Assembly (NCBI RefSeq): GCF_023509015.1
Contig: NZ_CP094975.1
Span: forward strand, 5,697,501-5,761,500
Length of the DNA stretch: 64,000 nucleotides
DNA from: Pseudomonas abieticivorans
Lineage (GTDB): Bacteria > Pseudomonadota > Gammaproteobacteria > Pseudomonadales > Pseudomonadaceae
Direction of reading: 5' to 3'
A program made the position numbers and the translations under genes. The notes beneath the pieces are model-generated. The model did not search any database and was not told the origin of the DNA. It saw only the letters and a list, made by a program, of their open reading frames with translations. Shown here piece after piece: positions 15,833 through 32,048 of the stretch. Every line of letters begins with the position of its first letter. Position 1 is the stretch's first letter.

Positions 15833-16006
15833 ATGGCAGACCGAAATGCAGCACCGCTAGCCCAGGACATTCTTGATCCCAGCCATGCCTACAAACCCAC
15901 TGACTTCCCCCGAATCGGGCGAGTGGGCGCGGAAAAAGAAGAGTTCGAACTGAGCAGTCTGAGCCCTTGGGTCAGCCTGGCAGATGAGGAGGAAGAGGAG
16001 GAGTAA
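15833..16006 (+). CDS. 57-residue acidic peptide ending in six glutamates
   Basis: ATG 15833 has GGAGG at 15820. A TATAGT box lies at about 15783, giving a plausible independent promoter divergent from surE. The product has a helical or disordered N-terminus, a central PTDFPRIGRVGAEKEEFELSS stretch (described in part as FPRIGR), one Trp, and a terminal Glu run followed by TAA. There is no signal peptide or membrane segment. I do not recognise a family. It could be a leaderless regulatory peptide, a nucleic-acid mimic or a modified-peptide precursor; no modifying enzyme is adjacent. Confidence 0.7.
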   Translation: MADRNAAPLAQDILDPSHAYKPTDFPRIGRVGAEKEEFELSSLSPWVSLADEEEEEE

Positions 16007-16016
16007 ATCGGGGGTT

Positions 16017-16035
16017 GCCCCGCCTTTTACGGGGC
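16017..16035 (+). terminator. Candidate terminator of the acidic peptide gene
   Basis: The stem GCCCCG...CGGGGC lies eleven bases after the peptide's stop, with a pyrimidine-rich loop (CCTTTTA). It is followed by GCCTTTGG rather than a strong U-tract, so it may only slow polymerase or protect the transcript's 3' end. Confidence 0.45.
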
Positions 16036-16040
16036 GCCTT

Positions 16041-16197
16041 TGGCGGATGAATCCGCTCCTACCCCTGTAGGAGTAATTGCCTGTCAGATGGGTATCGCTC
16101 TTTCGATTCGCGACCAAGGTCGCTCCCACACGTTTCGCGGCAGTTGAGCCCGTGAGGACTCGCTGCCCCAACCTGTGGGAGCGACCTTGGTCGCGAA
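16041..16197. repeat. Mixed REP cluster: GGATGAATCC type plus inverted GACCTTGGTC pair
   Basis: At 16041-16062 there is one copy of the window's common REP (GCGGATGAATCCGCTCCTAC). Then TTCGCGACCAAGGTCGCTCC begins at 16107 and its inverse GGAGCGACCTTGGTCGCGAA ends at 16197, a REPIN with a different inner palindrome. The cluster separates the peptide gene from the convergent OprD gene. Confidence 0.85.
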
Positions 16198-16248
16198 TAT
16201 CAGATTCATCCGCGAAGGTTACGACACCGAAAATCTACCGGGCGTGCA

Positions 16249-17577
16249 TCAGAACAGATTCATCGGATAGCTGACGATCACCCGATGTTCATCCTGGTCG
16301 CGCGCGCCGGCAAACTCGGTGCGCATCGAGGCGTGGCGCAGGGCGACGGTCAGGTTCTTGGCCGGGCCCGCCTGCACGGTGTAGCTCAAGGTCAGGTTGC
16401 GCTCCCACTCGGTCTTGTCGCCCGTGGCACTGCGGATGCCCGAACCGCTTTCGTACATGCCCAGAAAACTCAGGCCCGGCACGCCCATGGCGGCAAAGTC
16501 GTAGCCATAACGCACCTGCCAGGTGCGCTCGCCGGCACGCTGGAACTTGCCGATCATCGACTCGGTCATGAAGTACGCCGTGGAACCATCGCCCTGGTTC
16601 AGCCACACCGCGTCGCTATCGCCGCTAACCTGCTGGATACCAGCGGCAAAGGTGTGCGGGCCCACCAGGTAGGAAAACAGCGCGCTGCTCAACTGGCTGT
16701 CGACCTTGCCCTTGGTCACGCCGTTACCGTAGTAGCCCACGGTGTAGTAGGCCGGGTCATCGCCGTTCTTGCCTTCGGAACGGTTATTGAAGTAGCGCAA
16801 ATCGCTGCGCAGGGTGCCTGGGCCGACCTTCCAGTCGTATTTGAGGCCGAGGAAGTTCTGGCTGTAGAAGTCTTTCAGGTTGCCGTAGTAGTACTGCAGC
16901 AGCAGGTCCGGGGTGGCTTTCCAATCGACACCGGCGTACTGGAATTTATTGACGAACTCACCGGTCAGGCGGCTGTTGGAACCTGGGATCGACATGCCCA
17001 TCTGGTTGGTCGACCCACGGCCTTTCACGCTGTCCAGTTGGCCGGCGATGAAGGTGAAATTGTCCAGGTCCTTGGACTGGATCTGCTCGCCGTTAAAGGT
17101 TTGCTGCAGCATGCGGTCGGTCGACATCACCACCGGCAGCATGGGCACCAGGGCGCCGGCGCGCACTTCGGTCTTGGCAAAGCGCATTTTCGCGGTGGCG
17201 CCCAGGCTGCCGAATTCATCCGCCGCACGGCCGTCGTCGGTGGGGAAGATGTTGCCGTTGTAGGCACTGCCGGTCGGGTTGTAGTGGCGGCCTTTGCCCG
17301 AGTCCAGCTTGATCCCGAGCATGCCGATAGCGTCTACGCCAAAGCCCACGGTGCCGGGGGTGTAGCCAGACTTGAAGTTGAGGATAAAGCCCTGGCCCCA
17401 CTCCTGGGTGTAATTGGGGTTGGCCGAACCGCTGCGGTTGTCGGCGTTGCTGAAAAAGTTACGGGCCAACAGGCTCGCCGTGCTGTCCTCGATAAAGCCC
17501 TCGGCGTGGCTTTGTTGCGCAATGACCAGGCCACACAGGCCGGCAAGTAGGGTCGGCGCGCGGTTCACTCGCTCCAT
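16249..17577 (-). CDS. OprD-family outer-membrane porin
   Basis: A 442-residue protein with GAGGAT upstream of the ATG. A signal peptide ends at QQSHA. The mature start EGFIEDSTASLLARNFFSN (first residues EGFIEDS) is the hallmark of the OprD family, and the sequence ends in an aromatic residue (MNLF). OprD porins admit basic amino acids, small peptides or carboxylates; the specificity of this paralogue is unknown. It lies downstream of the DHA2 exporter on the same strand with a 53-bp gap and might be transcribed from its own promoter. Confidence 0.92.
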   Translation of the reverse strand: MERVNRAPTLLAGLCGLVIAQQSHAEGFIEDSTASLLARNFFSNADNRSGSANPNYTQEWGQGFILNFKSGYTPGTVGFGVDAIGMLGIKLDSGKGRHYNPTGSAYNGNIFPTDDGRAADEFGSLGATAKMRFAKTEVRAGALVPMLPVVMSTDRMLQQTFNGEQIQSKDLDNFTFIAGQLDSVKGRGSTNQMGMSIPGSNSRLTGEFVNKFQYAGVDWKATPDLLLQYYYGNLKDFYSQNFLGLKYDWKVGPGTLRSDLRYFNNRSEGKNGDDPAYYTVGYYGNGVTKGKVDSQLSSALFSYLVGPHTFAAGIQQVSGDSDAVWLNQGDGSTAYFMTESMIGKFQRAGERTWQVRYGYDFAAMGVPGLSFLGMYESGSGIRSATGDKTEWERNLTLSYTVQAGPAKNLTVALRHASMRTEFAGARDQDEHRVIVSYPMNLF

Positions 17578-17630
17578 CGGGGTATCCTCGGTATGTCGTT
17601 AAAGGGATGAGGGCAGGGCAAGGGCGGCAG

Positions 17631-19190
17631 TCAGTTATTGTTGTTATGGGCAGGGTTTTCAGGAGCAAGGTTGGCCGTGACGCGGGGTAGCACCACCGGC
17701 GGCAATCGGTACAGCAGCCACAGCGCCAGCACGCCAAGGGCGGCGCATAACAGCAGGCCCACGCCCACCGATTGCGCCAGGGCCACGCGGGCCAGGTGCA
17801 ACAACTCGGGTTGCGCGTGGGCGGCGCCGGTTTGCAGCAGCACTTGTGGGTCGAGGTAATAGGGCAGTTCGGCGTCAACATCTGCGCCGGCAAAGGCCTG
17901 CTGCAGGTGGCTGGCGTATAGCAACTTGATCAACGCGCCCATGACGGCGGTGCCGAGCAGGCCGCCCACCAGGCGCAGCGATTGGGTCAGGGCGGTGGCG
18001 ATGCCCAGGAACTGGCGCTCGGCCAGGGTTTGGGTGAACACCGTGAGGTTCATCAGGATGAAACCCAGGCCCAGGCCAGCCGCCAGGATCAACCCCAACA
18101 AGGTGTTGAACGAAGCATTCAGGCCGGCCAGCGACAGCCCGACACAGGCCAGTAGCAGCACGGCAAAACCGGCCAGGGGAATGACGTTGGGGTTGCGCAG
18201 GTGGGTGACGATGCGCCCGTTGACGATCGCCCCCAAGGTGATGCTCAGGGCCAGCGGGGTGATCAGCAGCCCGGCATCCTGCGGCGAATAGCCATAGCTG
18301 CCTTGCAACAGCAGCGGCAGGTAAAACAGCAGGGTAAACATAATCGCCCCGGCCAGCAGCGACAGCACGAACAACAACCGCATGCTACGCGAGCCAAACA
18401 GCGCGGCAGGCAATAGCGCCTGGGCGCAGCGGCGCTCCCAGGCCCACAAGGCCAGCGCGGCGCTGAGGCACGTCAGGCCCAACAACGCACAGGCAAGCAA
18501 AGGCCACTGGCTCAAGCCCTCCACGAACAGTTGCAGACTGCCCAGCGCCACTGCGATCAACGCCGCGCCCAGCCAATCCAGGCGGATGGCCCGGTTGTGC
18601 TGCGGCTTGTAGTGGGGCAGGTAGCGCCAGGCAAAAAACAGCGCGATGCAGCCCAGCGGCAGGTTCAGGTAAAACACCGAACGCCAGCCGAACGCCCCGG
18701 TCAGGTAGCCGCCCAGGCCCGGGCCGATGGCATTGACCACACTGAACAGCGCGCTCAACAGCATCTGCCAGCGCAGGCGCTGACGGGTATCGGGGAATAA
18801 CTCGGGGATGCAGGCGAACGCGGTGCCGATCAGCATGCCGCCGCCCACCCCTTGCAGGGCCCGGCCGAGCACCAGTACCCACATGTCGTTGGCCAGGGCG
18901 CACAACCAAGAGGCCAGCGTGAACACCACAGTGGCGGCGATCACGAACGGCTTGCGTCCGTAGTAATCGCCCAGCCGGCCGAAAATCGGAATGGTCACGA
19001 TGGACGCCAGCAGGTAGCCGGTGGCGACCCAGGCGTACAGTTCAAAGCCCTGCAGTTGCGCAACGATGCTGGGCAGGGCATTGCCGATCACCGTCTGGTC
19101 CAAGGCCGAGAGCATCAGTACCAATGAGAGGCCGAGCATGGCCAGCAGCGCTTGCTTGAAGCTTAGGGCGGGGTGGCTCGGCATCGTCAT
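17631..19190 (-). CDS. DHA2-type MFS drug/metabolite exporter (14 TM)
   Basis: About 519 residues. ATG 19190 is used because an upstream extension would run into the aminotransferase gene, which ends at 19201. The N-terminal LSALDQTVIGNALPSI motif and GRLGDYYGRKPF (motif A), together with LVLGRALQGVGGG, define the 14-TM proton antiporters of the EmrB/QacA group. The C-terminus has an unusual His-Asn tail ending in four asparagines. It is 10 bp downstream of the aminotransferase gene, so the two form an operon under the divergent LysR-linked promoter. It may export a toxic intermediate. Confidence 0.9.
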   Translation of the reverse strand: MTMPSHPALSFKQALLAMLGLSLVLMLSALDQTVIGNALPSIVAQLQGFELYAWVATGYLLASIVTIPIFGRLGDYYGRKPFVIAATVVFTLASWLCALANDMWVLVLGRALQGVGGGMLIGTAFACIPELFPDTRQRLRWQMLLSALFSVVNAIGPGLGGYLTGAFGWRSVFYLNLPLGCIALFFAWRYLPHYKPQHNRAIRLDWLGAALIAVALGSLQLFVEGLSQWPLLACALLGLTCLSAALALWAWERRCAQALLPAALFGSRSMRLLFVLSLLAGAIMFTLLFYLPLLLQGSYGYSPQDAGLLITPLALSITLGAIVNGRIVTHLRNPNVIPLAGFAVLLLACVGLSLAGLNASFNTLLGLILAAGLGLGFILMNLTVFTQTLAERQFLGIATALTQSLRLVGGLLGTAVMGALIKLLYASHLQQAFAGADVDAELPYYLDPQVLLQTGAAHAQPELLHLARVALAQSVGVGLLLCAALGVLALWLLYRLPPVVLPRVTANLAPENPAHNNNN

Positions 19191-19200
19191 GGCAGGCCCC

Positions 19201-20409
<1,209 letters not shown>

Positions 20410-20442
20410 GTGGGTTTCCTCGAGAGTGGCCTGATGGGGGCT

Positions 20443-20507
20443 ACGTTACGAGGCGGCCGTGGGCTGAGATAAGACAAGTTCGTTCTGGGTTGATAGGCGC
20501 AGCTTAT
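20443..20507 (-). promoter_or_regulatory. LysR-type operator and promoter of the aminotransferase-exporter operon
   Basis: Read leftward, ATAAGCTGCGCCTAT (20507-20493) forms an imperfect T-N11-A inverted repeat. It is followed after 20 bp by TTATCT (-35-like, 20472-20467), 18 bp, and TAACGT (-10-like, 20448-20443). The same spacing recurs at the two other promoters of this region. The site lies in the 365-bp gap between the aminotransferase and LysR genes; the remainder of that gap (20508-20774) shows no gene. Confidence 0.7.
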
Positions 20508-20774
20508 GACCGGGAATGTTCCATGCCGCACCAAAGTGGTGCCGCGCCGTGTTTGCGAGGGTTGCCTGGGTGGGTTGTGGTGCTTTGCCGCAGTGTCATA
20601 GCAAAGGCTTATATCGGCGGTGTCTGTTGCGCGGATCAATGCGCCCCTGCACGAGCCGCGATCACTTGTAGGCACGGATTGATCGGCGAACCGCTTCCTG
20701 CCGATATTCGCCCTGCCAGGTTCTGGCCTGGCTCTTGCTCTACCCCTGCATTGCCCTGCCAGAGTGTGCCGCCT

Positions 20775-21692
20775 GTGAACCTGCGCCGTTTGAAGTACTT
20801 CGTGAAGATCGTCGACGTCGGCAGCCTGACCCAGGCCGCCGATGTGCTGCACATCGCCCAGCCTGCGCTCAGCCAGCAACTGGTGACGCTGGAGGCGGAG
20901 ATGCAACAGCAATTGATCATCCGTACCAAGCGCGGCGTGACGCCGACGGAGGCGGGCAAGGTGCTGTATGGCCACGCGCAGTTGATTCTGCGTCAGTGCG
21001 AGCAGGCCCAAAGCGATGTCAATGCCACCGGTTTCGCCCTGTCCGGCCAGGTCTCGGTGGGCCTGGCTCCCGGCACGGCGGCCTCGGCGCTGTCGCTGCC
21101 GTTGCTGCGCCGGGTACGCGAGCGCCACCCCGGGGTGCTGCTGTACCTCAACGAAAACTTTGGCACCACACTGAGCGAGTTGATCATGAACGGGCGCATG
21201 GACATGGCCGTGCTGTACGGCGGCCGTGAGGTGCATGGGCTGAGCTTCGTGCCGTTGATGCGCGAGCAGCTGTACCTGGTGAGCGCCGACCCCGAGTTGC
21301 AGGCGCGCGACGAAATCGCCTTGGCGGAACTTGCCGACCTGGACCTGTTGTTGCCGCGCACCTACAACACCATGCGCCGGCTGGTGGACGAGGCCTTCCT
21401 GAAGATCGGCTTGAGCGCACGGGTGATCGCCGAGGTGGAGTCGTCCACCACGCTGGCCGCCGCCGTGAGCGAGCATTTCGGCTCGACGATTTTGCCCGAG
21501 TCCGCCGCTCGCGCCTTGGTGGCGGTGCACGAGGCGCACCTGTGCCGCATCGTCCAACCGCAAATAGAGGCGCCCTTGGCCTTGTGCCTTTCAGGGCATT
21601 TGCCGCTGTCGGTGCCGGCCCAGGCGGTCAAGGCGATCCTGCTGGAACTGGTGGCCGAGATGCGCGGCAACCTGGTCTCGGTGCAGTCATAA
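20775..21692 (+). CDS. LysR-family regulator of the carboxylase/Pxp region
   Basis: A 305-residue protein starting at GTG 20775, immediately before the HTH domain (LRRLKYFVKIVDVGSLTQAA, recognition helix around HIAQPALSQQL). The C-terminal substrate-binding domain resembles the Nac/GltC-like group. The open frame upstream of the GTG is not LysR-like and was excluded. Its stop codon TAA lies inside the T-N11-A site of the next operon. Three such sites flank or follow this gene, making it the best candidate regulator of the aminotransferase, carboxylase and SDR operons. Confidence 0.9.
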   Translation: MNLRRLKYFVKIVDVGSLTQAADVLHIAQPALSQQLVTLEAEMQQQLIIRTKRGVTPTEAGKVLYGHAQLILRQCEQAQSDVNATGFALSGQVSVGLAPGTAASALSLPLLRRVRERHPGVLLYLNENFGTTLSELIMNGRMDMAVLYGGREVHGLSFVPLMREQLYLVSADPELQARDEIALAELADLDLLLPRTYNTMRRLVDEAFLKIGLSARVIAEVESSTTLAAAVSEHFGSTILPESAARALVAVHEAHLCRIVQPQIEAPLALCLSGHLPLSVPAQAVKAILLELVAEMRGNLVSVQS

Positions 21693-21753
21693 GCGGCCCT
21701 TATCACCCCACAGTCAAACCCTCTTGGCCGCGTTTTGGCACGCTCGATACAGT
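21689..21753 (+). promoter_or_regulatory. LysR-type operator and promoter of the biotin carrier-Pxp operon
   Basis: ATAAGCGGCCCTTAT at 21689-21703 is a T-N11-A inverted repeat. After 20 bp comes TTGGCC (21724-21729), an 18-bp spacer and TACAGT (21748-21753), leaving roughly a 35-nt leader before ATG 21795. The operator overlaps the last codons of the LysR gene. Placement of the operator upstream of -35 fits activation by a LysR protein. Confidence 0.78.
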
Positions 21754-21794
21754 GCGCTCCAGCCACTTTTTTCTATTCACGGCAGGGGCATTGC

Positions 21795-22214
21795 ATGAAC
21801 CCGGAACGCATCAAAGCGCTGATCGACCTGATGGCCGAGTCCGACCTCAGCGAACTGCGCCTCAACGAAGGCGACACCCAGCTGCAGCTGTTGCGCGACG
21901 GCCAGGTGCCGTGCGTGCCAGCACCGCCCGCGGCGGCCCCGACGGTGCAGGCCGTGTCGCCCGCCACCACCGGCACTTTTGAAGCCAGCGCCGCGCTGTA
22001 CGGCGTGCTGCACCTGACACCTGCGCCCGACCAACCGGCTTTCGTGCAGGTGGGCGATACAGTTGCCCAGGGCCAAACCCTGGCCGTGGTCGAGGCGATG
22101 AAGATGTTCCACCCGCTCAAGGCCGAACACGCAGGCACCGTACAAGCGATTTTGGCCGCCAGTGGCGAAGAAGTCGCCGCCGGCCAGCCGCTGTTTCGCC
22201 TGGAGGGCGTGTGA
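21795..22214 (+). CDS. Biotin carboxyl carrier protein (AccB-like)
   Basis: A 139-residue carrier. An N-terminal helical segment (NPERIKALIDLMAESDLSELRL) resembles AccB. An Ala/Pro linker follows, then a biotinyl domain with the canonical EAMKM lysine motif near residue 97. Biotin ligase attaches biotin to that lysine, and the carrier then moves carboxybiotin. Its gene sits beside accC- and pxp-like genes rather than with housekeeping accBC, so it probably serves a catabolic carboxylase. It heads the operon and ends immediately before the carboxylase start. Confidence 0.87.
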   Translation: MNPERIKALIDLMAESDLSELRLNEGDTQLQLLRDGQVPCVPAPPAAAPTVQAVSPATTGTFEASAALYGVLHLTPAPDQPAFVQVGDTVAQGQTLAVVEAMKMFHPLKAEHAGTVQAILAASGEEVAAGQPLFRLEGV

Positions 22215-23567
22215 ATGTTTGATACTGTGCTGATCGCCAATCGCGGCGAAATAGCCTTGCGCATCCTGCGGGCCTGCCAAGGCCTGGGCCTCAAGACGGT
22301 GGCGGTGTATTCCGAAGCCGATCGCGACGCCGGCTACGTGCAACTGGCCGACCAGGCTATCTGCATTGGCCCGGCAGCCCCGGGCCAGAGTTACTTGAAC
22401 CAGGCAGCGCTGCTGTTTGCCGCCGAGTTGAGCGGCGCCCAGGCGATCCACCCAGGCTACGGTTTTCTCTCGGAAAACGCCGCCTTTGCCGAGCGCGTCG
22501 AACAGGCCGGCCTGACCTTCATCGGCCCCAGCGCCGCGTGCATCCGTACCATGGGCGACAAAGTCTCGGCCAAGCGCGCCATGCGTGAAGCCGGTGTGCC
22601 GTGCGTGCCCGGCCCCGACACCAGCATGGCGCAAGACCCGGCGACCATCCTGGCCATTGCCCGCCAGATCGGCTACCCGGTGATCGTCAAGGCCGCGGGT
22701 GGTGGCGGTGGGCGTGGCATGCGCGTGGTCGAGCAAGAGGACCAATTGCTTGCGGCCATCGGCCTGACCCGCGAAGAAGCGCGCCGCGCGTTCGGCAACC
22801 CGGAGCTGTACATCGAGAAATTCCTGGGCGAACCCCGCCACGTGGAGATCCAGGTGCTGTGCGATGCCTATGGCCACGCGGTGTGGCTGGGCGCACGCGA
22901 CTGCTCAATGCAGCGCCGCCACCAGAAGGTGCTGGAAGAGGCCCCGGCCCCCGGCATCGACCCGGCCGAGCTGGGCCGGGTGGGCGAGCGTTGTGCGGCG
23001 GCCTGCCGGCAGATCGGCTATCAGGGCGTGGGCACCTTCGAGTTTTTGTACGAGCACGGCGAATTCTATTTCATCGAGATGAACACCCGCCTGCAGGTGG
23101 AACACCCGGTGACCGAGATGACCACCGGCATCGACATCGTCCAGCAACAGATCCGCATGGCGTTGGGCGAACGTTTGGGCCTGACCCAGGCCGACATCTG
23201 CGTGCAAGGCCATGCGTTGGAATGCCGGATCAACGCCGAAGACCCGCACAGCTTCATGCCCACCCCAGGGCTGGTCAGCCGCTGGGAAGTGCCTGGCGGC
23301 TATGGCGTGCGGGTCGACAGCCATGTCAGCCACGGTTACCGCGTGCCGCCTTACTACGACTCGATGGTGGCCAAGGTCATCACCCACGGGGCCACCCGGG
23401 CAGAAGCCCTGGCGCGCATGCGCCTGGCCCTGAGCGAAATGCGCGTGGAGGGTATCAGCACCAACATTGCCCTGCACCGCGAGATTCTCCAGGACCCTGG
23501 CTTCAACGCCGGCGGTGTCGATATTCATCATCTGGAACGTTGGCTGCAACTGAGGAGTACCCCATGA
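22215..23567 (+). CDS. Biotin carboxylase (AccC-like)
   Basis: A 450-residue ATP-grasp enzyme. It has [16 protein letters not shown] at the start, the glycine-rich ATP loop [34 protein letters not shown] and the catalytic [14 protein letters not shown] block (residues E, N, R and E). It carboxylates biotin on the preceding carrier using ATP and bicarbonate. No carboxyltransferase subunit of the AccA/D or PCC type is encoded nearby; the following PxpB/PxpC proteins, homologous to parts of urea amidolyase, take that place. It overlaps pxpB by ATGA. Confidence 0.9.
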
Positions 23568-24235
23568 GTGCCATGCACACGGACGCGGCCCCACGCATCA
23601 GCTTGCTGGGCACCACCGCCTTGCTGCTCGAAGCGCCCGGCAGCCTGGACCTGGCCCCGCAACAACGAATCTGGGCGTTGGCCCGGCTGGCCGAGCAGTG
23701 GCCGGCGATTCGCGAAGCCGTGCCGGGCATGAACAACCTGATGCTGACCTTCGACACGCCGCCGCGCGACCTGCAGGGCCTGAAAACCCGCCTGCTCGAC
23801 GCCTGGGCGCAGTGCCCGCCGCTGCCCCTGGAGGGCCGCGTGATCGAATTGCCGGTGGTGTACGGCGGCGAGCACGGCCCGCACATGGCCGATGTGATCG
23901 CCCACACCGGGCTGGATATCGAGACCATCGCCAACCTGCATTGCGAACCGCTGTACCCGGTGTACGCCTTGGGCAGCCACCCGGGCTACTGCTACCTGGG
24001 CGGCATGGACCCGCGCCTGGCCACCCCGCGCCGGCAGGTGCCGGTGCTCACTATCGGCGCAGGCTCCGTTTCCATCGGCGGCGTGCAGACCGGCGTGTCG
24101 GCCTCGGCCGGCCCCAGCGGCTGGAACACCATCGGCCGTACCGAAATGGTCTTTTTCAACGCCGAGCAGTCGCCACCGGCGATCTTGCAGCCTGGCGACC
24201 AACTGCGCTTTCGTATCGAGAGGATCATCCGATGA
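23564..24235 (+). CDS. pxpB: 5-oxoprolinase subunit B-like (KipI/DUF213)
   Basis: A 223-residue protein with the KipI/allophanate-hydrolase N-domain features: [21 protein letters not shown] (pattern PGYxYLGG...PR), followed by [12 protein letters not shown] and a late GWNTIGRT. PxpB and PxpC form the ATP-dependent partner of PxpA in prokaryotic 5-oxoprolinase, and related domains form the carboxyltransferase part of urea carboxylase. Start and stop codons overlap those of both neighbours (ATGA), indicating translational coupling. Confidence 0.87.
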
Positions 24236-25191
24236 TCGAGATCATCAGCGCCACCGCCCTGGCCACCGTCCAGGACCTGGGCCGCAACGGCAGCCTGGGC
24301 TACGGCGTGGGCACCTCCGGGGCCATGGACAGTTTGTCGTTGACCTTGGGCAACCTGTTGCTGGGTAACGAGCCGGGGGCGGCGGCCATCGAGATCCCGC
24401 TGTTCCCCTTTGAAGTGCGCTTTATCCAAGACTGCGCCTTCGCCGTGACGGGCGCCGCCTGCGGGGCCCGGTTGGACGGCCAGGTAATCCCCCCCAACTG
24501 GGTGGCCCAGGCGCTGGCCGGCCAGGTCTTGAAACTCGGTTACCCGTCGGCCGGCAGCCGTGCCTACCTATGCCTGGCCGGTGGGGTCGACGTGCCGCCG
24601 GTGCTGGGCTCGCGCAGCACCCAGTTGCGTGGCGAGTTCGGCGGCTGGCAGGGGCGCATGTTGCAGCAGGGCGACCGCTTGCCCGCAGGCCGCCCGGGCC
24701 TGGCCAGTACCAGCGATTTTGGCGTGAGCCTGGTGAGCCGGGCGATGCCGCTGGCGGTCGATGGCGTGCCGGCCATGCGCGTGCTGCCAGCAGCCGAATA
24801 CGACTGCTTCAGCGAAGATTCGCAGGCGGCGTTCTGGGCCGGGCAATGGAAAATCACCACCCAGAGCAACCGCTACGGCTATCGCCTTGAAGGCCAGCCG
24901 CTGCTGCCCAAGCACCCTCTGGAAGTTCGCTCCCATGGCATCGTGCCGGGGGTGATCCAGGTACCCCACGGTGGCCAGCCGATCATTCAGATGCGCGATG
25001 CCCAACCCAGCGGCGGTTACCCCAAGTTCGGCACAGTGATCGAGGCCGACCTGTGGCGGCTGGGCCAGGCCCCCATCGGTAGTTCGGTACGTTTCATTCA
25101 ATGCAGCTACGAGCAGGCCCTGGATGCGCTGGAGGCCAACCGCACCTTCATCGACGCCACGCGCCGCTTGCTGACCTTGCACAGCCTTTGA
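24232..25191 (+). CDS. pxpC: 5-oxoprolinase subunit C-like (KipA/biotin-dependent carboxyltransferase domain)
   Basis: A 319-residue protein with the family opening VQDLGRNGSLGYGVGTSGAMD and further conserved blocks YLCLAGGVDVPPVLGSRST and SHGIVPGVIQVPHGGQPII (read as SxGIxPGxIQVP). Pfam names this CT_A_B, a domain shared with urea carboxylase. With PxpB and the biotin carboxylase it could transfer a carboxyl group to a lactam or amide nitrogen. It is coupled to pxpB by a 4-bp overlap. Confidence 0.88.
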   Translation: MIEIISATALATVQDLGRNGSLGYGVGTSGAMDSLSLTLGNLLLGNEPGAAAIEIPLFPFEVRFIQDCAFAVTGAACGARLDGQVIPPNWVAQALAGQVLKLGYPSAGSRAYLCLAGGVDVPPVLGSRSTQLRGEFGGWQGRMLQQGDRLPAGRPGLASTSDFGVSLVSRAMPLAVDGVPAMRVLPAAEYDCFSEDSQAAFWAGQWKITTQSNRYGYRLEGQPLLPKHPLEVRSHGIVPGVIQVPHGGQPIIQMRDAQPSGGYPKFGTVIEADLWRLGQAPIGSSVRFIQCSYEQALDALEANRTFIDATRRLLTLHSL

Positions 25192-25201
25192 GGACCTAAG
25201 C

Positions 25202-25609
25202 ATGAACCTTCAGGAAATACGCCAGTTGGCCCGCTGGCTGAGCGCGGCCAACCTCAGTGGGCTACAGATTACCCGGCCCGGTTTCGAACTGACCCTGCGC
25301 CGTGGGTCGGCTGCGCCCGCGCAGGCCGCGGTGGCGGTCCAGACTCAAGTGGCTGCGGTATCTGACGCGCCGACGGCGTCAGTCAAGGCCAGCGGCCCCG
25401 GGCACTTTTTCAGCCACCACCCCGACGAGCGCAGTGCCTGGGTCAAGGCCGGCGATGAGGTGCAAGCCGGCCAATTGCTGGGCGTACTGCGCATCGGCCA
25501 CTTGATGCTGCCGGTGCGCAGTGACCAGGCCGGGCGGGTGAGCGCGGTGCGCGCCGCCGAAGGCGAACAGGTGGGTTACGGCCAGCCGCTTTTTGACCTG
25601 GCCGTCTAG
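25202..25609 (+). CDS. Degenerate biotinyl/lipoyl-domain protein lacking the biotinylation lysine
   Basis: A 135-residue paralogue of the carrier at 21795, with the same layout: an N-terminal helical segment (NLQEIRQLARWLSAANLSGLQI), a linker and a beta-barrel biotinyl fold. At the position of EAMKM it reads RIGHL, so the modified Lys is His and the flanking Met and Ala are also changed. The rest of the fold is conserved (DEVQAGQLLGVL...GEQVGYGQPLFDL). It cannot carry biotin in the usual way. A structural, tethering or competitive role in the carboxylase complex is possible. It lies within the operon, 10 bp after pxpC. Confidence 0.78.
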   Translation: MNLQEIRQLARWLSAANLSGLQITRPGFELTLRRGSAAPAQAAVAVQTQVAAVSDAPTASVKASGPGHFFSHHPDERSAWVKAGDEVQAGQLLGVLRIGHLMLPVRSDQAGRVSAVRAAEGEQVGYGQPLFDLAV

Positions 25610-25615
25610 GAGCCG

Positions 25616-26389
25616 ATGATGCGTATAGATTTGAATGCCGACCTGGGCGAGGGCTTCGGCCCGTGGACAATGGGCGAAGACCAGGCGTTGATGCAGGTGG
25701 TCTCTTCGGCCAACGTGGCCTGTGGGTTTCATGCCGGCGACCCGCTAATCATGGACGCCACGGTACGCCAGGCCAAGGCGGCCGCCATCGACCTGGGCGC
25801 GCATGTCGGCTACCCCGACTTGCAGGGCTTCGGCCGCCGGGCCATGAACATCGAGCTGCGCGAGCTGGCCACATACGTGGTTTACCAGTTGGGTGCGCTG
25901 GCCGGCATGGCCGCCGTTGCCGGCCACCCCATGACCCACATGAGTTTCCATGGCGCCCTGGGCAACCGGGTGGCCGCCGATGCCCAGATGGCCGAGGTGC
26001 TGGTGCGCGCCGTGGCCCAGTTTGACCCCCGGCTGATCATCAGCTCATCCAGCAGCCAGGCCATCGAGGCGGCCGCAGGCAAGCACGGGTTGCGGGTGGC
26101 GACTACCTTCCTGGCCGACCGCGCCTACGACGAGCACTGCCTGCTGGTGCCGCGCGGCATCCCAGGCGCGGTGATCAAGGACCCGGCGCAGGTGCGCCAG
26201 CGGGTCGCGCAATTGTTGCAGGACGGCACCGTGACCACCCTGGACGGCAAGCGGGTCAAGGTCGACGCCTGTTCGATCCTGCTGCACGGCGACACGCCGG
26301 GCGCGGTGACGCTTGCCCGCGACCTGCGCCAGTTCATCGAAGGGCAGGGCGCCGTCATCACCCCGATCAGCCAGTTGCTGCGGTCATAA
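25616..26389 (+). CDS. pxpA: 5-oxoprolinase subunit A-like (LamB/YcsF)
   Basis: A 257-residue protein matching LamB/YcsF closely: the N-terminal DLNADLGEGFGPWTMGEDQ region, SSANVACGFHAGDP and the late LHGDTPGAV block. PxpA works with PxpBC to open 5-oxoproline (pyroglutamate) to glutamate using ATP. With an adjacent biotin carboxylase the complex may act through N-carboxylation, or on another lactam. Two adjacent ATGs (25616 and 25619) follow GGAG. The gene ends the operon and is followed by the next LysR-type operator. Confidence 0.9.
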   Translation: MMRIDLNADLGEGFGPWTMGEDQALMQVVSSANVACGFHAGDPLIMDATVRQAKAAAIDLGAHVGYPDLQGFGRRAMNIELRELATYVVYQLGALAGMAAVAGHPMTHMSFHGALGNRVAADAQMAEVLVRAVAQFDPRLIISSSSSQAIEAAAGKHGLRVATTFLADRAYDEHCLLVPRGIPGAVIKDPAQVRQRVAQLLQDGTVTTLDGKRVKVDACSILLHGDTPGAVTLARDLRQFIEGQGAVITPISQLLRS

Positions 26390-26450
26390 GCGCAGCTTAT
26401 CGCCACACAACCAATGCGTCTTGGCCGTGCACAGCACGGCTGGTTACAGT
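26386..26450 (+). promoter_or_regulatory. LysR-type operator and promoter of the SDR operon
   Basis: ATAAGCGCAGCTTAT (26386-26400) has perfect six-base arms and T-N11-A geometry. It is followed after 20 bp by TTGGCC (26421-26426), an 18-bp spacer and TACAGT (26445-26450). Both hexamers and both spacings are identical to those of the biotin carrier operon promoter, and CTTGGCCG is shared around the -35. Control by the LysR protein encoded at 20775 is inferred. Confidence 0.8.
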
Positions 26451-26481
26451 CCAGAACAGAAGCAGAATTGAGGAACACCCC

Positions 26482-27234
26482 ATGCCATTTTCCGATTATA
26501 AAACCGCGCTGGTGACCGGCGCCTCCTCGGGTATCGGTGCCGCCGTGGTCGAGCGCTTGTGCGCCGAGGGCGTGCAGGTGCACGCCCTGGCCCGCAGCGC
26601 CGACAAGCTGGCTGAATTGGCCGAGCGCACCGGCTGCATCGCCCACGCCGTCGACGTCACCGACCTTGCCGGGCTGACCGCGCTGTTCGAGCGCTACACC
26701 TTCGACATCCTGGTCAACAACGCCGGCGTCGACCGCCCCGGCTCCCTGCTCAAGGCCGATGCAGAAGGCATAGACCTGCTGGTAGACGTGAATATTCGCG
26801 CCGTGCTGCACCTGGCGCGCCTGGCCCTGCCGGGCATGATGGCGCGCGACTGTGGGCACATCGTCAACATCAGCTCCATTGCCGCCGCCTACAATTTCGG
26901 CGGCAACGCCACCTACCACGCGACCAAGGCTGCGGTCAGCATGCTGTCCAAGCAGCTGCGGGTCGACGCATTCGGCAAGCGCGTGCGGGTCACCGAGATT
27001 TGCCCGGGCCGGGTGGCCACCGACATCTTCGCCCATGTGCACGGTGACTCCGACGAAGTGCGCCAGCGCTTTATCGAAGGCTTCGAGTTGCCCGAGGCCA
27101 AGGACATCGCCAACGCCATTGCTTTCGCCATTGCCGCGCCGGTGTCGATGAACGTTGGCCACATGGAAATCACCCCTACGCTGCAAGTGCCGGGTGGGCT
27201 GCAAACCGCACGCCCCCAGGAGTATCAGGGCTGA
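26482..27234 (+). CDS. Short-chain dehydrogenase/reductase
   Basis: A 250-residue NAD(P)-dependent oxidoreductase of the classical SDR type: TGASSGIGAAV for the cofactor, NNAGVDRPG, the catalytic Ser near INISSIAA and YHATKAA for the Tyr/Lys pair. Overall similarity is to the YdfG-type 3-hydroxy acid dehydrogenases, although the substrate is unproven. The strong LysR-type promoter in front of it ties it to the carboxylase/Pxp pathway. A terminator-like hairpin lies between it and the ABC genes. Confidence 0.88.
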   Translation: MPFSDYKTALVTGASSGIGAAVVERLCAEGVQVHALARSADKLAELAERTGCIAHAVDVTDLAGLTALFERYTFDILVNNAGVDRPGSLLKADAEGIDLLVDVNIRAVLHLARLALPGMMARDCGHIVNISSIAAAYNFGGNATYHATKAAVSMLSKQLRVDAFGKRVRVTEICPGRVATDIFAHVHGDSDEVRQRFIEGFELPEAKDIANAIAFAIAAPVSMNVGHMEITPTLQVPGGLQTARPQEYQG

Positions 27235-27281
27235 GCCCCGCAGGCCTTAAAAGAACGGCCCAAGCCGTCATTGCCGCACCC

Positions 27282-27302
27282 GCGCCGGGTTCGCCCCGGC
27301 GC
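27282..27302 (+). terminator. Terminator-like hairpin between SDR and ABC transporter genes
   Basis: An eight-base-pair GC-rich stem GCGCCGGG-ttcgc-CCCGGCGC is followed by CTTGTTTCTG. The tail is only moderately T-rich, so partial termination that sets the ratio between the SDR and the transporter is as likely as a full stop. Confidence 0.55.
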
Positions 27303-27342
27303 CTTGTTTCTGCCCCAAGCCGCATGTCGATGGGAATTGACC

Positions 27343-28044
27343 ATGAAGCATGACTTCGATCTGGCCGCGATCCTCCAAGGCGAATACGCCGCGCTGATCC
27401 TCAAGGGCATAGAAATGACCCTGCAACTGGCGTTGTTCGCCTGGTGCCTGGCCATGGTGCTGGCGCTGTTGCTAGTGTCGGTCCGCCTGACGGGCAACAA
27501 GTACGCCGAACGCCTGGTGGCGGCCTACGTGTCGTACCACCGCAACGTGCCGACCCTGGTGCAACTGATGCTCTGGTACTTCGGCATCCCGACGCTGCTC
27601 AGCGACACCACGCAAATCTGGCTGGCCAACTACAGCACCGAATACCTGTTCGCGATCATCGCCCTGGGCCTGTGCCAGGCGGCGTACTTCAGCGAGGACA
27701 TCCGCAGCGGCCTGCGCGCCATCCCCAGCGGGCAAACCGAGGCGGCCCGCGCCCTGGGCCTGGGCTACGTGCGTTCGTTGCGCTACGTGATCCTGCCCCA
27801 GGGGGTGCGCAACTGCCTGCCCTCGCTGATCAACCACACCGTGCTGCTGTTCAAGAACACCAGCCTTGCCATGGCAATCGGCGTGGTGGAGCTGACCTAC
27901 GCCACCCGGGAAGTGGAGAACTACACCTTCCGCACGTTCGAATCGTACCTGGTGGCCACCCTGGTGTACCTGGCGATTTCGCTGCTGCTGATGGGCCTGG
28001 GTGCCCTGATCGCACGGCACTTCAGCAAAGCCACGGCGAGGTAG
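27343..28044 (+). CDS. Polar amino-acid ABC transporter permease 1 (HisQ/GlnP type)
   Basis: A 233-residue inner-membrane protein. ATG 27343 starts just before the first conserved stretch. It contains the HisMQ-type core (GIEMTLQLALFAW, RNVPTLVQLMLWYFGIP) and the EAA loop [25 protein letters not shown]. It pairs with the permease encoded 5 bp downstream to form the channel for a polar amino acid or analogue. Confidence 0.9.
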   Translation: MKHDFDLAAILQGEYAALILKGIEMTLQLALFAWCLAMVLALLLVSVRLTGNKYAERLVAAYVSYHRNVPTLVQLMLWYFGIPTLLSDTTQIWLANYSTEYLFAIIALGLCQAAYFSEDIRSGLRAIPSGQTEAARALGLGYVRSLRYVILPQGVRNCLPSLINHTVLLFKNTSLAMAIGVVELTYATREVENYTFRTFESYLVATLVYLAISLLLMGLGALIARHFSKATAR

Positions 28045-28049
28045 GCGCG

Positions 28050-28793
28050 ATGTTCGATTTTTTCACGATTGTGCGCGACAACTGGGCGCTGCTTCTCATC
28101 GGTCAGTACCCCCACGGGCCCTTGGGCGGGCTGGCCAACACGCTGATCCTGGCCGCGTTGGCGCTGATTCTGGCGTTCCCCCTGGGGATGCTGCTGGCGC
28201 TGGCGCGGGTGTCGCCGTGGCGCTGGCTACGTTACCCGGCCACGGTGTGGGTGTATGTGCTGCGCGGTATCCCGCTGCTGATGGTGATCTTCTGGACGTA
28301 CTTCCTGGTGCCACTGCTGATCGGCCACAACATCACCGGCTTCGCCACCATGCTCTGCACCCTGGTGGTGTACCAGAGCGCGTACCTGTGCGAGATCATT
28401 CGCGGCGGCATTCAGGCCTTGCCCAGCGGGCAGTATGAAGCTTCGCGGGCCTTGGGCCTTGGGTATGTGCGCAGCACGATCTGGGTGATCCTGCCCCAGG
28501 CGCTGTACAACGCCTTACCCAGCCTGATCAGCCAGTTCGTTTCGATCATCAAGGAAACCTCCCTGGGCTACGTGATCAACGTGCAGGAGGTCACCTTCGC
28601 GGCAAACCAGGTCAACAACCAGTTGCTGACCAAACCTTTCCAGGTGTTTTTCATCCTGGCGATTACCTACTACGTGCTGTGCTACGGCCTGACCCGCCTG
28701 GCGGGCGTGCTGGAAGCGCGTATTGCCCGCAAGCGCCAGGGTAGCAATGCCCAGGCAGCGCCGCAGGCTTGCCTGCTGACCAGCGATAACTGA
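28050..28793 (+). CDS. Polar amino-acid ABC transporter permease 2
   Basis: A 247-residue permease with about five membrane segments, a [17 protein letters not shown] stretch and the EAA loop [24 protein letters not shown]. It forms a heterodimer with the preceding permease. The C-terminus is a basic, Ala/Gln-rich cytoplasmic tail. Spacing to both neighbours (5 and 14 bp) indicates one transcript. Confidence 0.9.
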
Positions 28794-28807
28794 AGAGGGT
28801 TGCCTTC

Positions 28808-29545
<738 letters not shown>

Positions 29546-29574
29546 ATTCAACCTGATTGACCTGGAGTAGCCCC

Positions 29575-30408
29575 ATGCGTATGAAGCAATTGTTGGCGAT
29601 GATGGCGTTGGCCCCCTTGGCCGTCTCGGTGGCCCAGGCCGACCAGATGAGTGATGTGCTGGCGAAAAAAAGCTTGAGCTGCGGCGTCTACGCGGACGTG
29701 CCGCCGTTCTCCGCGCCCGACCCTAAAACCCGTGAGCTGGTGGGCATGGACGTGGACCTGTGCACGGCGTTGGCCAAGCACCTGGGCGTGGCCCTGGAAC
29801 TCAAGCCGATGTCGGTTGAGGCGCGTATCCCTGAGGTTAAGATGGGCCGTGTCGACGTGATCTTCGCCAATCTTGCCTACACCAAGAGCCGTGCGGAGCA
29901 GATCCAGTTCAGCGACCCTTACTACATTGCCAAGGAAACCCTGGTGGTGCGCGCGCCGAACGCCGACCAACCGCGCTCGTTCTTCAAGGACAAGAAAATC
30001 AGCTCGACCAAGGGCTCGACCTCCGAGCAATCGATCCGCATGGCCGACGCCACGCCGGTGACGTTCCAGGACACGGGTTCTGCCTACATGGCCCTGCAGC
30101 AGAACAAAGTGGTGGGGCTGGTGACCAACACCATGACCGCGATCAAACTGGTGGGCCAGGCGAAGGAGGGCGGCGTGGAGCTTGCCATCGCCAAGGAGCC
30201 AATGGCCCTGGAACCGATTGGCGCCGGCATGCGCCAGGGCGAACCGGCCTTTCTGGCCAAGGTCAATGAATCGCTGCGCGCCATGGACCAGGCCGGCGAA
30301 ATCGACGCCATCTGGAACCGCTGGATCGGCCCGGACACCGCCTACAAGATGGTGCGCGAAGACAAGGTGCAGAGCTTGAGCGAATTGAAATTCGACCCGT
30401 TGCCCTGA
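29575..30408 (+). CDS. Polar amino-acid ABC transporter periplasmic binding protein
   Basis: A 277-residue SBP_bac_3 protein; ATG 29575 follows CTGGAG. The signal peptide ends at VAQA. The mature protein contains GVYADVPPFSAPDPKTRELVGMDVDL and the family pattern FANLAYTKSRAEQIQFSDPYY, whose Arg and Asp normally hold the amino and carboxyl groups of an amino acid. Together with the linked 5-oxoprolinase-like genes it may bring in a lactam or acidic amino-acid derivative. It ends the cluster. Confidence 0.9.
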   Translation: MRMKQLLAMMALAPLAVSVAQADQMSDVLAKKSLSCGVYADVPPFSAPDPKTRELVGMDVDLCTALAKHLGVALELKPMSVEARIPEVKMGRVDVIFANLAYTKSRAEQIQFSDPYYIAKETLVVRAPNADQPRSFFKDKKISSTKGSTSEQSIRMADATPVTFQDTGSAYMALQQNKVVGLVTNTMTAIKLVGQAKEGGVELAIAKEPMALEPIGAGMRQGEPAFLAKVNESLRAMDQAGEIDAIWNRWIGPDTAYKMVREDKVQSLSELKFDPLP

Positions 30409-30467
30409 TGGGCTTAAGCATGGGCGGCCAACGCCGCTCGTTCATACCTGGGTGCGTTGCAATACCG

Positions 30468-30656
30468 GTAGGAGCGGATTCATCCGCGAAGCAGCCGACG
30501 TAATTTGCCTGACACACCGCGGTGCGCTTTTCGCGGATCAATCCGCTCCTACGGAAGGAACGCGATCGCCTGTAGGAGCGGATTCATCCGCGAAGCAGCC
30601 GACATAATTTGCCTGACACACCGCGGTGCGCTTTTCGCGGATCAATCCGCTCCTAC
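30468..30656. repeat. Two tandem REPIN units, 104-bp period
   Basis: Two nearly identical copies start at 30468 and 30572. Each has GTAGGAGCGGATTCATCCGC at the left, a linker with the GACACACCGCGGTGCGC centre, and the inverse TTCGCGGATCAATCCGCTCC at the right. The copies differ by a single base in the linker (gacgtaat/gacataat). They occupy the gap after the binding-protein gene; the rest of that gap up to 30854 shows no gene. Confidence 0.92.
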
Positions 30657-30854
30657 ATGCAAGCCCGGTCATGGCCCGCCTGTTGTCGCGCCCCCACCAC
30701 CGCGCGTAGAATTCGCGTTATCTGGATTCACCCCCAATACTCATAACAATCGCTGGCCGCAGGCTCCACTCAGGCAAACCCTGGGTGGGGCTTTCGTGCG
30801 TGGCGTTTTCGGGTGTGGGTTGTTTTTTTCACGATTTGGCGCGGGTTCTCATAC

Positions 30855-32048
30855 ATGGATGCATCCCAGGATGTTCACACCGGCAGTTGGTTGAGCGTGA
30901 TCGCGCTGGCCCTGGCGGCCTTTATTTTCAACACCACCGAATTCGTCCCCGTGGGCCTGCTGAGCTCCATCGGCGGCAGTTTCGACATGACCCCTGCGCA
31001 AGTCGGCCTGATGCTGACGATCTATGCCTGGGTGGTGTCCTTGATGTCGCTGCCGATGATGTTGATCACCCGCAACGTCGAGCGGCGGCGCTTGCTGATG
31101 TGTGTGTTCGGCGTGTTTATCGTAAGCCACGTGCTGTCCTGCGTGGCCAACAGTTTTGCCATGCTGATGGTCAGCCGTATCGGCATTGCCTTCTCTCACG
31201 CGGTGTTCTGGTCGATCACCGCGTCACTGGCCGTGCGCGTGGCGCCGGCGGGCAAAGAGGTGCAGGCCCTGGGGCTATTGGCGACGGGCACGTCCCTGGC
31301 CATGGTGCTGGGCATCCCGCTGGGCCGGGTGGTGGGTGAATTGCTGGGCTGGCGCATGACCTTCCTGAGCATTGCCGTGGCCGCAGGCGTGACCGTGCTG
31401 TGCCTGGCCAAGTCGCTGCCCTTGCTGCCCAGCCAGAACTCCGGTTCCCTGCAAAGCCTGCCTATGCTGTTCAAGCGGCCACCGTTGGTGGCCTGCTACG
31501 TGCTGACGGCGTTGGTGGTGACCGCGCAGTTCACCGCCTACAGCTACATCGAGCCGTTCTCGCAATCGGTCGCGCACCTGAGCAGCGAAATGACCACCTT
31601 GCTGCTATTGCTGTTCGGTGGCGCCGGTATCATTGGCTCGCTGGTGTTCAGCCTGTTCAATAATCGCTACCCGCGTGGTTTGCTGATTGCCTCCATCGGC
31701 TCGCTGGCGGTGTGCCTGTTGCTGCTGTTGCCACTGTCGTACAAGGCCGGTTACCTGGGCGCGCTGAGCGTGCTGTGGGGCGTGGCGATCATGTGCTTTG
31801 GCCTGATGCAACAAGCCAAGGTGCTGCAGCTGTCGCCCGACGCCACCGACGTGGCCATGGCCCTGCACTCGGGCATCTACAACATCGGCATCGGTGGCGG
31901 GGCACTGCTGGGCAGCGTGGTCAGCAGCCAGATCGGCGTGGCCAATGTTGGCATCGTCGGCGGCGTGCTGGCCGTGTTGGGCCTGGTGTTGTGTTGCGTG
32001 GCAGCACGCCGCTTTGGCAACCCCAAGGTGATTCACACCATCGGGTAG
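30855..32048 (+). CDS. sotB: Sugar/drug efflux MFS transporter, SotB-like
   Basis: About 397 residues and 12 TM segments. The N-terminal [20 protein letters not shown] is characteristic of the SotB/YdeA group, which exports arabinose and IPTG-like sugars. ATG 30855 (MDASQD) is preferred; an upstream in-frame ATG at 30813 would add 14 residues. Motif A is reduced, as is common in this group. Its end overlaps the convergent glutathione S-transferase gene by 16 bp. Confidence 0.87.

Follow-up and report, generated by a model that had tools for sequence, protein, structure and literature searches.

What controls the three operons that surround a LysR gene in a biotin- and Pxp-type gene cluster of Pseudomonas abieticivorans, and from where does that control take its signal? 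The cluster lies in a 64,000-nucleotide stretch of contig NZ_CP094975.1 (assembly GCF_023509015.1, positions 5,697,501 to 5,761,500 of the forward strand), which we call the window and number from its first letter. Its operons are headed by an aminotransferase gene, a biotin carrier gene of the pxp unit and a short-chain dehydrogenase (SDR) gene. A preliminary description had noticed T-N11-A inverted repeats with closely similar promoters upstream of all three and had proposed a local LysR regulon. The present analysis supports that regulon and adds what the description lacked, namely the identity of the LysR protein, an NtrC/sigma54-type input and a fourth site at a phased spacing. We consider it likely, with good confidence, that a two-tier nitrogen-limitation circuit is encoded here, running from NtrC and sigma54 to Nac and from Nac to three local sigma70 promoters.

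The regulator gene and its family

20775 to 21692, plus strand: nac-type LysR regulator gene, GTG start, 305 amino acids (NCBIfam NF008410 NAC, with HTH_1 and LysR_substrate)

By family model, the gene at 20775 encodes a nitrogen assimilation control (NAC) protein. The product scores 489.6 bits against the NAC equivalog NF008410 (cut-off 309) and is a LysR-type protein by its N-terminal HTH_1 domain and C-terminal LysR substrate domain. It is the only protein over the NAC cut-off in its own genome, the next LysR protein being 31% identical. Alignment with Escherichia coli Nac gives 53.6% identity over 295 residues, with 50 of the first 60 aligned residues identical in the helix-turn-helix (HTH) region (counted on the alignment) and 108 of 235 beyond them. 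The preliminary description had assigned the three repeats to this protein by conjecture, and both the NAC identity and the neighbourhoods shared in relatives argue for that assignment. In PMC5263251 NAC means negative autogenous control, not nitrogen assimilation control, and that source is drawn on here solely for its citation of Feng et al. (1995).

Three sites with a common promoter grammar

20493 to 20507, minus strand: Nac-type site 1, ATAAGCTGCGCCTAT read towards the aminotransferase operon, kept in Pseudomonas and most betaproteobacterial loci
20467 to 20472, minus strand: -35-like hexamer TTATCT of the aminotransferase operon, the preceding TC and the hexamer's TT conserved
20443 to 20448, minus strand: -10-like hexamer TAACGT of the aminotransferase operon, with an 18-bp spacer in the window and the Betaproteobacteria and mostly 19 bp in other Pseudomonas
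21689 to 21703, plus strand: Nac-type site 2, overlapping the nac stop codon
21724 to 21729, plus strand: -35-like hexamer TTGGCC of the pxp operon, positioned from the site and from conservation in relatives
21748 to 21753, plus strand: -10-like hexamer TACAGT of the pxp operon, positioned likewise
26386 to 26400, plus strand: Nac-type site 3, overlapping the pxpA stop codon
26421 to 26426, plus strand: -35-like hexamer TTGGCC of the SDR operon, positioned likewise
26445 to 26450, plus strand: -10-like hexamer TACAGT of the SDR operon (Pseudomonas consensus: TAgAGT)

All three 15-mers are found where the preliminary description had placed them, and all conform to the T-N11-A rule, the established binding-site pattern of LysR proteins. 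The enteric Nac consensus ATA-N9-TAT is matched by these and by the fourth site described below. Within the window, ATARGC-N4-CTTAT at no more than one mismatch gives six strand-matches, exactly at these three places; shuffled windows average 0.21 matches, and none of 100 shuffles reaches six. Site 2 shares bases with the stop codon of nac and site 3 with that of pxpA, which places both in compact operon junctions.

The order of site, 20 bp, hexamer, 18 bp and hexamer recurs at all three sites in the direction of each operon, with the pairs TTATCT/TAACGT (aminotransferase), TTGGCC/TACAGT (pxp) and TTGGCC/TACAGT (SDR). The earlier claim of an identical design goes a little too far in the case of the aminotransferase promoter, where TCTT is kept and the -10-like hexamer lies 1 bp further out in most Pseudomonas relatives, the window and the Betaproteobacteria excepted. 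For these comparisons one genome per species was scanned and the best 80 of 119 loci encoding a relative were used, with tblastn matches shorter than half the query ignored in the neighbourhood, site and upstream analyses; consensus lines include only distinct sequences of sites above score 9 or 10, misses not included. The relatives belong to Pseudomonas, to Enterobacterales (Pantoea, Rahnella, Brenneria, Lonsdalea and others) and to Betaproteobacteria (Variovorax, Paraburkholderia, Herbaspirillum and others). What is most constant among them is the site itself and the TC at positions 34-35, immediately 5' of TT. The SDR promoter consensus reads ATAAG-N5-CTTAT, CANA and GTC-TT at fixed places, and a TAnA(G/T)T-type hexamer after an 18-bp spacer, and the pxp promoter of Pseudomonas and Betaproteobacteria follows the same grammar, spacer included. 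In all three of these groups CANA (positions 21-24) and TCTT keep their fixed places 3' of the pxp and SDR sites; CANA is also kept in the Pseudomonas aminotransferase promoter and is absent from the betaproteobacterial one.

A generic sigma70 and terminator scan of the window yielded nothing in excess of its shuffles (two promoter-like sites against a shuffle mean of 2.0), and the three promoters are not among its calls, which marks their hexamers as weak. The hexamers are accordingly proposed on conservation and not on consensus score. With a start assumed 7 nt past the -10-like hexamer, the centre of the site would fall at -64, a position known for Nac sites. This geometry bears on whether Nac might repress rather than activate the three operons. 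Enteric Nac does repress some targets, gdhA and gltB for example (PMC12304020). A repressor would be expected to have sites overlapping the promoters, whereas here the sites end about 20 bp 5' of poor -35 elements at a constant spacing, which is the position of an activator. We accordingly judge repression improbable and retain activation by Nac as the preferred reading.

The composite pattern is confined to the locus

Site and downstream half were combined into one composite pattern, ATARG-N5-CYTAT-N5-CANA-N9-TCTT. The 6.7-Mb genome contains three exact matches, which are the three promoters, none at one or two mismatches and five at three; the reversed composite gives 13 matches at up to three mismatches in the same genome. 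The composite was built partly from these three sites and their Pseudomonas relatives, so its fit to them is circular; its absence elsewhere is not. The preliminary description had expected a genome-wide search to find the pattern at this locus and had named a pattern common across unrelated promoters as evidence against its regulon; the search did not contradict the regulon, every exact match in the 6.7 Mb lying here.

The same association holds across the genus. Among 298 genomes, 17 carry a protein of the Nac family above cut-off, and all 17 have three or four composite sites at no more than one mismatch, all within about 13 kb of nac. Only 2 of the 281 genomes without nac contain the composite, with one site each at one mismatch and in near-identical sequences, and the reversed composite yields 10 single matches over the 298 genomes. 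Co-occurrence of composite and nac gives a Fisher p of 8e-26 with kinship ignored.

The 15-mer alone behaves differently and was dropped as regulon evidence: at up to one mismatch it gives 51 strand-matches in the whole genome against 89 for the reversed pattern, and is thus no commoner than its control. Two further exact 15-mer places lie outside the window, the downstream half of the composite being found at neither. One is just 5' of a porphobilinogen-synthase-like gene, named from its translation. The other (L002 2568320) carries ATAAGCAGGGCTTAT and is flanked by a sulfatase-like gene and, divergently oriented, a LysR gene, both named in the same way; the arm sequence of ATAAGCAGGGCTTAT is common to other LysR-linked sites. 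Composite target sites are hence confined to this locus, and short ATA-N9-TAT sites elsewhere are possible.

Could the sites belong to another regulator, with nac beside them by coincidence? ATAAG...CTTAT-like sites do adjoin other LysR genes of this genome, as such an explanation would have it. It has to contend, however, with a composite present in 17/17 genomes with nac and 2/281 without, with sites that stay with nac in three bacterial groups, and with three enterobacterial genomes carrying two Nac proteins, in which the composite at no more than one mismatch lies only beside the cluster-linked Nac. We find this explanation scarcely credible and take Nac as the regulator.

Sites follow the leading genes in relatives

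Most loci share the Pxp genes, the SDR gene, an amino-acid-type ABC transporter and the aminotransferase gene as neighbours of nac, and the biotin genes are present in most Pseudomonas loci and in the betaproteobacterial ones. A site was counted when it had at least 10 of 12 consensus positions within 200 bp upstream, upstream stretches below 150 bp being left out. By this measure a site precedes the SDR homologue in 72/75 loci, the homologue of the first carrier gene (bccp1) in 47/55 and the aminotransferase gene in 36/78; nac itself has one, at score 10 or more, in 18/79. Non-leading genes have none within 200 bp (abcM1 0/71, abcA 0/71, sbp 0/62, pxpA 0/73, pxpC 0/78, accC 0/56, oprD 0/36), and single-base shuffles give a site rate below 0.01 for every gene. 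A 10-scoring ATA-N9-TAT does lie inside the operon in two loci (L050 and L053), 208 bp from pxpA.

Genes for major facilitator superfamily (MFS) transporters have a site in 5/42 loci, which are those where the MFS gene leads a divergent operon. In these five Pseudomonas-type loci (L064, L065, L071, L072 and L077) the site remains with the leading gene, and PxpB and PxpC are only 41-51% identical; in L064, L065 and L077 the PxpA-SDR-ABC genes lie 6-10 kb upstream.

A doubled post-nac site, its copies 674 bp apart, is seen at L038 10915-11603 and at G051:C1:3967439-3968149, and genome G051 has a partial second nac-like match between the two copies. This suggests a tandem duplication of the nac 3' end.

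A probable Nac paralogue with a resident regulon

Six genomes were searched for additional Nac proteins. The three enterobacterial ones (G059, G060 and G061) carry both an E. coli-like Nac and a cluster-linked Nac, and one Paraburkholderia and two Pseudomonas genomes have one protein each over the NAC cut-off. In G059, G060 and G061 the composite at no more than one mismatch occurs only beside the cluster-linked nac, with two matches each. A tree of 45 rows, comprising 30 hand-chosen from the 80 loci and 15 others, sets the E. coli-like Nac rows apart as a group of 4 (92/96, not starred) and the enterobacterial cluster-linked rows as a group of 13 (100/100). The Pseudomonas rows, with the window protein among them and E. 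coli Nac outside, make up a group of 15 (100/99); support is weak (83/38) at the fork joining Pseudomonas and Betaproteobacteria, and a warning about long outgroup branches applies to the tree. Given coexistence with E. coli-like Nac, separation in the tree and a composite found only beside the cluster-linked gene, the most fitting description of the protein is a Nac-family paralogue whose regulon is resident, rather than the canonical enteric orthologue.

A second protein over the NAC cut-off (365 bits) is encoded in one Pseudomonas genome (G198:C1:4102145-4103041), with no composite sites adjoining it.

A candidate nitrogen input upstream of nac

20724 to 20739, plus strand: sigma54-type promoter TGGCCTGGCTCTTGCT (GG-N10-GC) of nac, scoring 19.5 of 22.5 in the window
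20527 to 20543, strand not given: NtrC-like site CGCACCAAAGTGGTGCC, between Nac-type sites 1 and 4, with 12 of 14 consensus positions

How nitrogen status might reach the regulon is suggested by the region 5' of nac, which was compared in 80 upstream regions (79 loci and the window; L055 was left out for its short upstream stretch). A sigma54-type element scoring at least 19.5 is present in 66/80, against 0/80 reversed and 9/80 reverse-complemented regions. An NtrC-like site with at least 11 of 14 positions occurs in 48/80 regions versus 2/80 reversed, and its GCAC half is conserved in a 17-row alignment. Judged by consensus, nac appears to stand behind an NtrC/sigma54-type promoter, and nitrogen status probably enters there. 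Enteric bacteria have an established relay from phosphorylated NtrC through nac to Nac (PMC12304020), and in a Pseudomonas NtrC governs the use of nitrogen sources (PMC8443478).

The signal might instead come from the pathway, with an inducer-responsive LysR protein sensing a pathway substrate such as 5-oxoproline at the same three promoters and nitrogen control being secondary. Such a sensor would fit the tie of nac to one catabolic cluster, as is usual for pathway-specific LysR genes, the lower resemblance to E. coli Nac past the first 60 residues (108/235 against 50/60), and the Burkholderiaceae loci, where a good sigma54 element is missing and the pxp and SDR sites are kept. Enteric Nac, however, works without a co-effector, and conserved sigma54-type elements, often with NtrC-like sites, precede nac in both Pseudomonas and Enterobacterales. 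A precedent for substrate sensing does exist in Corynebacterium, where the unrelated GntR regulator PxpR senses 5-oxoproline (PMC13274462). On balance we think substrate sensing unlikely, though not far-fetched, and keep nitrogen limitation as the preferred signal.

A fourth site at a phased distance

20598 to 20612, strand not given: Nac-type site 4, ATAGCAAAGGCTTAT, 105 bp from site 1

The fourth site, missed by the preliminary description, forms a pair with site 1 around the NtrC-like site. The distance between sites 1 and 4 was taken from 37 regions, being 36 of the 43 Pseudomonas loci and the window; the other seven loci have no aminotransferase gene directly before nac or lie on an incomplete contig. 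It is 105 bp in 15 regions, 106 in 11, 107 in one, 94 in nine and 263 in one, so that 36/37 have a spacing of 94 or 105-107 bp. With 10.5 bp to a helical turn, distances of 94 and 105 bp come near to 9 and 10 turns. Across the same 37 regions site 4 lies 20-863 bp from the sigma54 element and the latter 50-361 bp from nac, and the DNA between sites 1 and 4 is mostly unconserved save for the NtrC-like half-site (17 aligned rows). Since the intervening DNA is mostly unconserved and the neighbouring distances vary, the spacing looks selected. A Nac-bridged loop enclosing the NtrC-like site would most likely give autorepression. Autorepression by Nac is known; repression of the Klebsiella nac promoter was reportedly described by Feng et al. 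in 1995, and Nac is said to repress glutamate dehydrogenase formation in a tetramer-dependent way.

Another account gives the two sites no joint role: site 4 alone would block contact between NtrC and the sigma54 polymerase, and the spacing would reflect shared descent. The 94-bp spacing occurs in nine loci that are possibly one clade, E. coli nac has a single ATA-N9-TAT in 420 upstream bases, and betaproteobacterial loci have no second ATA-N9-TAT at the corresponding position, all of which agree with it. It fits less well with a spacing held at 105-107 or 94 bp through mostly unconserved DNA, or with an NtrC-like half-site kept inside while the neighbouring distances vary freely. We put this account somewhat below an even chance and continue with the bridged pair.

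Gene content and candidate substrate

The gene products of the three operons were named by family searches except where stated.

19201 to 20409, minus strand: class I/II aminotransferase (aspartate transaminase model), first gene of operon 1 (NF004769, 724.6 bits, cut-off 617)
17631 to 19190, minus strand: DHA2-type MFS transporter (efflux_EmrB, 215.9 bits, just under the cut-off of 230.2; slightly longer frame searched)
16249 to 17577, minus strand: OprD-family porin (PF03573)
21795 to 22214, plus strand: biotin carboxyl carrier-like protein 1
22215 to 23567, plus strand: biotin carboxylase (AccC-type)
23564 to 24235, plus strand: PxpB, carboxyltransferase C/D domain (TIGR00370 over cut-off; PF02682)
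24232 to 25191, plus strand: PxpC-like, 5-oxoprolinase/urea amidolyase family (TIGR00724 over cut-off)
25202 to 25609, plus strand: biotin carboxyl carrier-like protein 2
25616 to 26389, plus strand: PxpA, LamB/YcsF type (NF003814, a subfamily model, 326.7 bits, cut-off 226)
26482 to 27234, plus strand: SDR, first gene of operon 3 (PF00106)
27343 to 28044, plus strand: amino-acid-type ABC permease 1 (named from translation and neighbours)
28050 to 28793, plus strand: amino-acid-type ABC permease 2 (named likewise; kept beside permease 1 in relatives)
28808 to 29545, plus strand: ABC ATPase (PF00005)
29575 to 30408, plus strand: family 3 solute-binding protein (PF00497)

A biotin carboxylase and two carrier proteins within one operon (21795-25609) suggest a carboxylation step, plausibly on a cyclic amide or urea-like nitrogen compound. 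We infer 5-oxoproline as the default substrate candidate. The PxpC-like protein stays below its equivalog model (322.7 against a cut-off of 500). The enzyme is perhaps not a plain 5-oxoprolinase but one that carboxylates its substrate.

Between the SDR and ABC permease genes, a strong GC hairpin (8 G-C pairs) with a weak T tail lies at 27282-27302 and could attenuate read-through into the transporter genes. No Rfam family was found in 16000-31000 at gathering thresholds.

The proposed circuit

Under nitrogen limitation, phosphorylated NtrC would bind near 20527-20543 and, together with sigma54 RNA polymerase at 20724-20739, switch on nac. Nac would then bind the ATAAG-N5-CTTAT-type sites centred about 64 bp 5' of the three weak sigma70 promoters and activate the aminotransferase-MFS-OprD, biotin/Pxp and SDR(-ABC) units. 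By bridging sites 1 and 4, about 9 or 10 helical turns apart with the NtrC-like site between them, it would finally turn its own promoter off. The sites, their spacings and conservation, the uniqueness of the composite and the family assignment are read from the sequence; binding, activation, nitrogen control, looping and the -64 position are predictions.

Several points weigh against this circuit. The best 80 of 119 loci leave distant relatives under-sampled. The -35- and -10-like hexamers are poor matches to sigma70, and among aligned relatives the Enterobacterales pxp-side promoter keeps CANA and TCTT without a conserved -10-like hexamer. Enterobacterales are also essentially without an aminotransferase site (19/20 scored below 9 in the 60-115 bp stretch examined), their aminotransferase gene being only 46-50% identical. 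On the input side, the 14 regions below 19.5 are 13 Burkholderiaceae loci and one Variovorax locus. With these enterobacterial gaps and Burkholderiaceae lacking the sigma54 element, neither limb is universal. The nine 94-bp cases may go back to a single inherited deletion, in which case the phasing could have few independent events behind it, and the ATAAG...CTTAT-like sites beside other LysR genes of this genome count here as well.

The patchy presence of nac in the genus (17/298) and the neighbourhood shared with Betaproteobacteria suggest horizontal movement of the locus. The recurrence of this layout in Pseudomonas and in more remote bacteria likewise suggests that the circuit is self-contained, can move and serves to scavenge a nitrogen compound. 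The broadest interpretation, which we advance tentatively as falling only just short of even, is a portable nitrogen-scavenging module moved among Gamma- and Betaproteobacteria, with a dedicated Nac paralogue that differs from the global enteric Nac and can exist alongside it, with targets confined to the module, and in Pseudomonas with loop-out of the NtrC enhancer by phased operators.

Significance and comparison with known systems

In a few enteric bacteria Nac is known to act broadly as a regulator. A separate Nac lineage tied to one catabolic cluster in three bacterial groups would constitute a compact natural system in which to study how a global regulator turns local, or a local one global. 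The locus also gives a testable promoter grammar and a probable nitrogen input for a Pxp-type cluster, and looped anti-activation at a sigma54 promoter could be tested on the phased operator pair around an NtrC-like site. In the CC-licensed literature searched, no title or abstract opening among the top matches listed joins Nac with a Pxp cluster, and the Nac consensus does not appear in the available parts of PMC5217608 and PMC10657418.

The closest parallel is Nac of Klebsiella and E. coli. The window protein belongs to the same NCBIfam equivalog, has 50/60 identical residues in the HTH region and is associated with sites that fit ATA-N9-TAT. In both systems nac is preceded by sigma54-type and NtrC-like elements with ATA-N9-TAT upstream (E. 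coli nac has ATA-N9-TAT at -189 and the sigma54-type element at -70), and target sites lie upstream of sigma70-type hexamers. The canonical enteric regulon is genome-wide (hut, ure, gdhA and others); in the present genome the composite target sites are confined to the locus, and short ATA-N9-TAT sites may exist elsewhere. The window Nac is also separate in the tree, both types being present in 3/3 enterobacterial genomes examined, and its gene lies inside its own target cluster, not beside cbl.

The predicted loop has a counterpart in the LysR protein ThnR, whose bridging of divergent promoters depends on the helix face (PMC4834489). As there, two sites in a divergent intergenic region lie on one helix face, compatible with bridging; unlike there, one of the divergent promoters is sigma54-type, an NtrC-like site falls inside the putative loop, and the arrangement is known from sequence.

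For the metabolic genes, the nearest relative is the Corynebacterium PxpTABC/PxpR system, described in 2026 in a paper whose authors state that, to their knowledge, the regulation of bacterial 5-oxoproline metabolism had not been studied before (PMC13274462). In both loci a transporter and a local regulator accompany homologues of PxpA, PxpB and PxpC. The regulator here is of Nac type, likely with nitrogen input, and not a GntR protein, and a biotin carboxylase with two carriers is added, so that the substrate may differ from that of PxpTABC. All parts of the proposed circuit have precedents, and the dedicated, locus-confined Nac paralogue is the new element.

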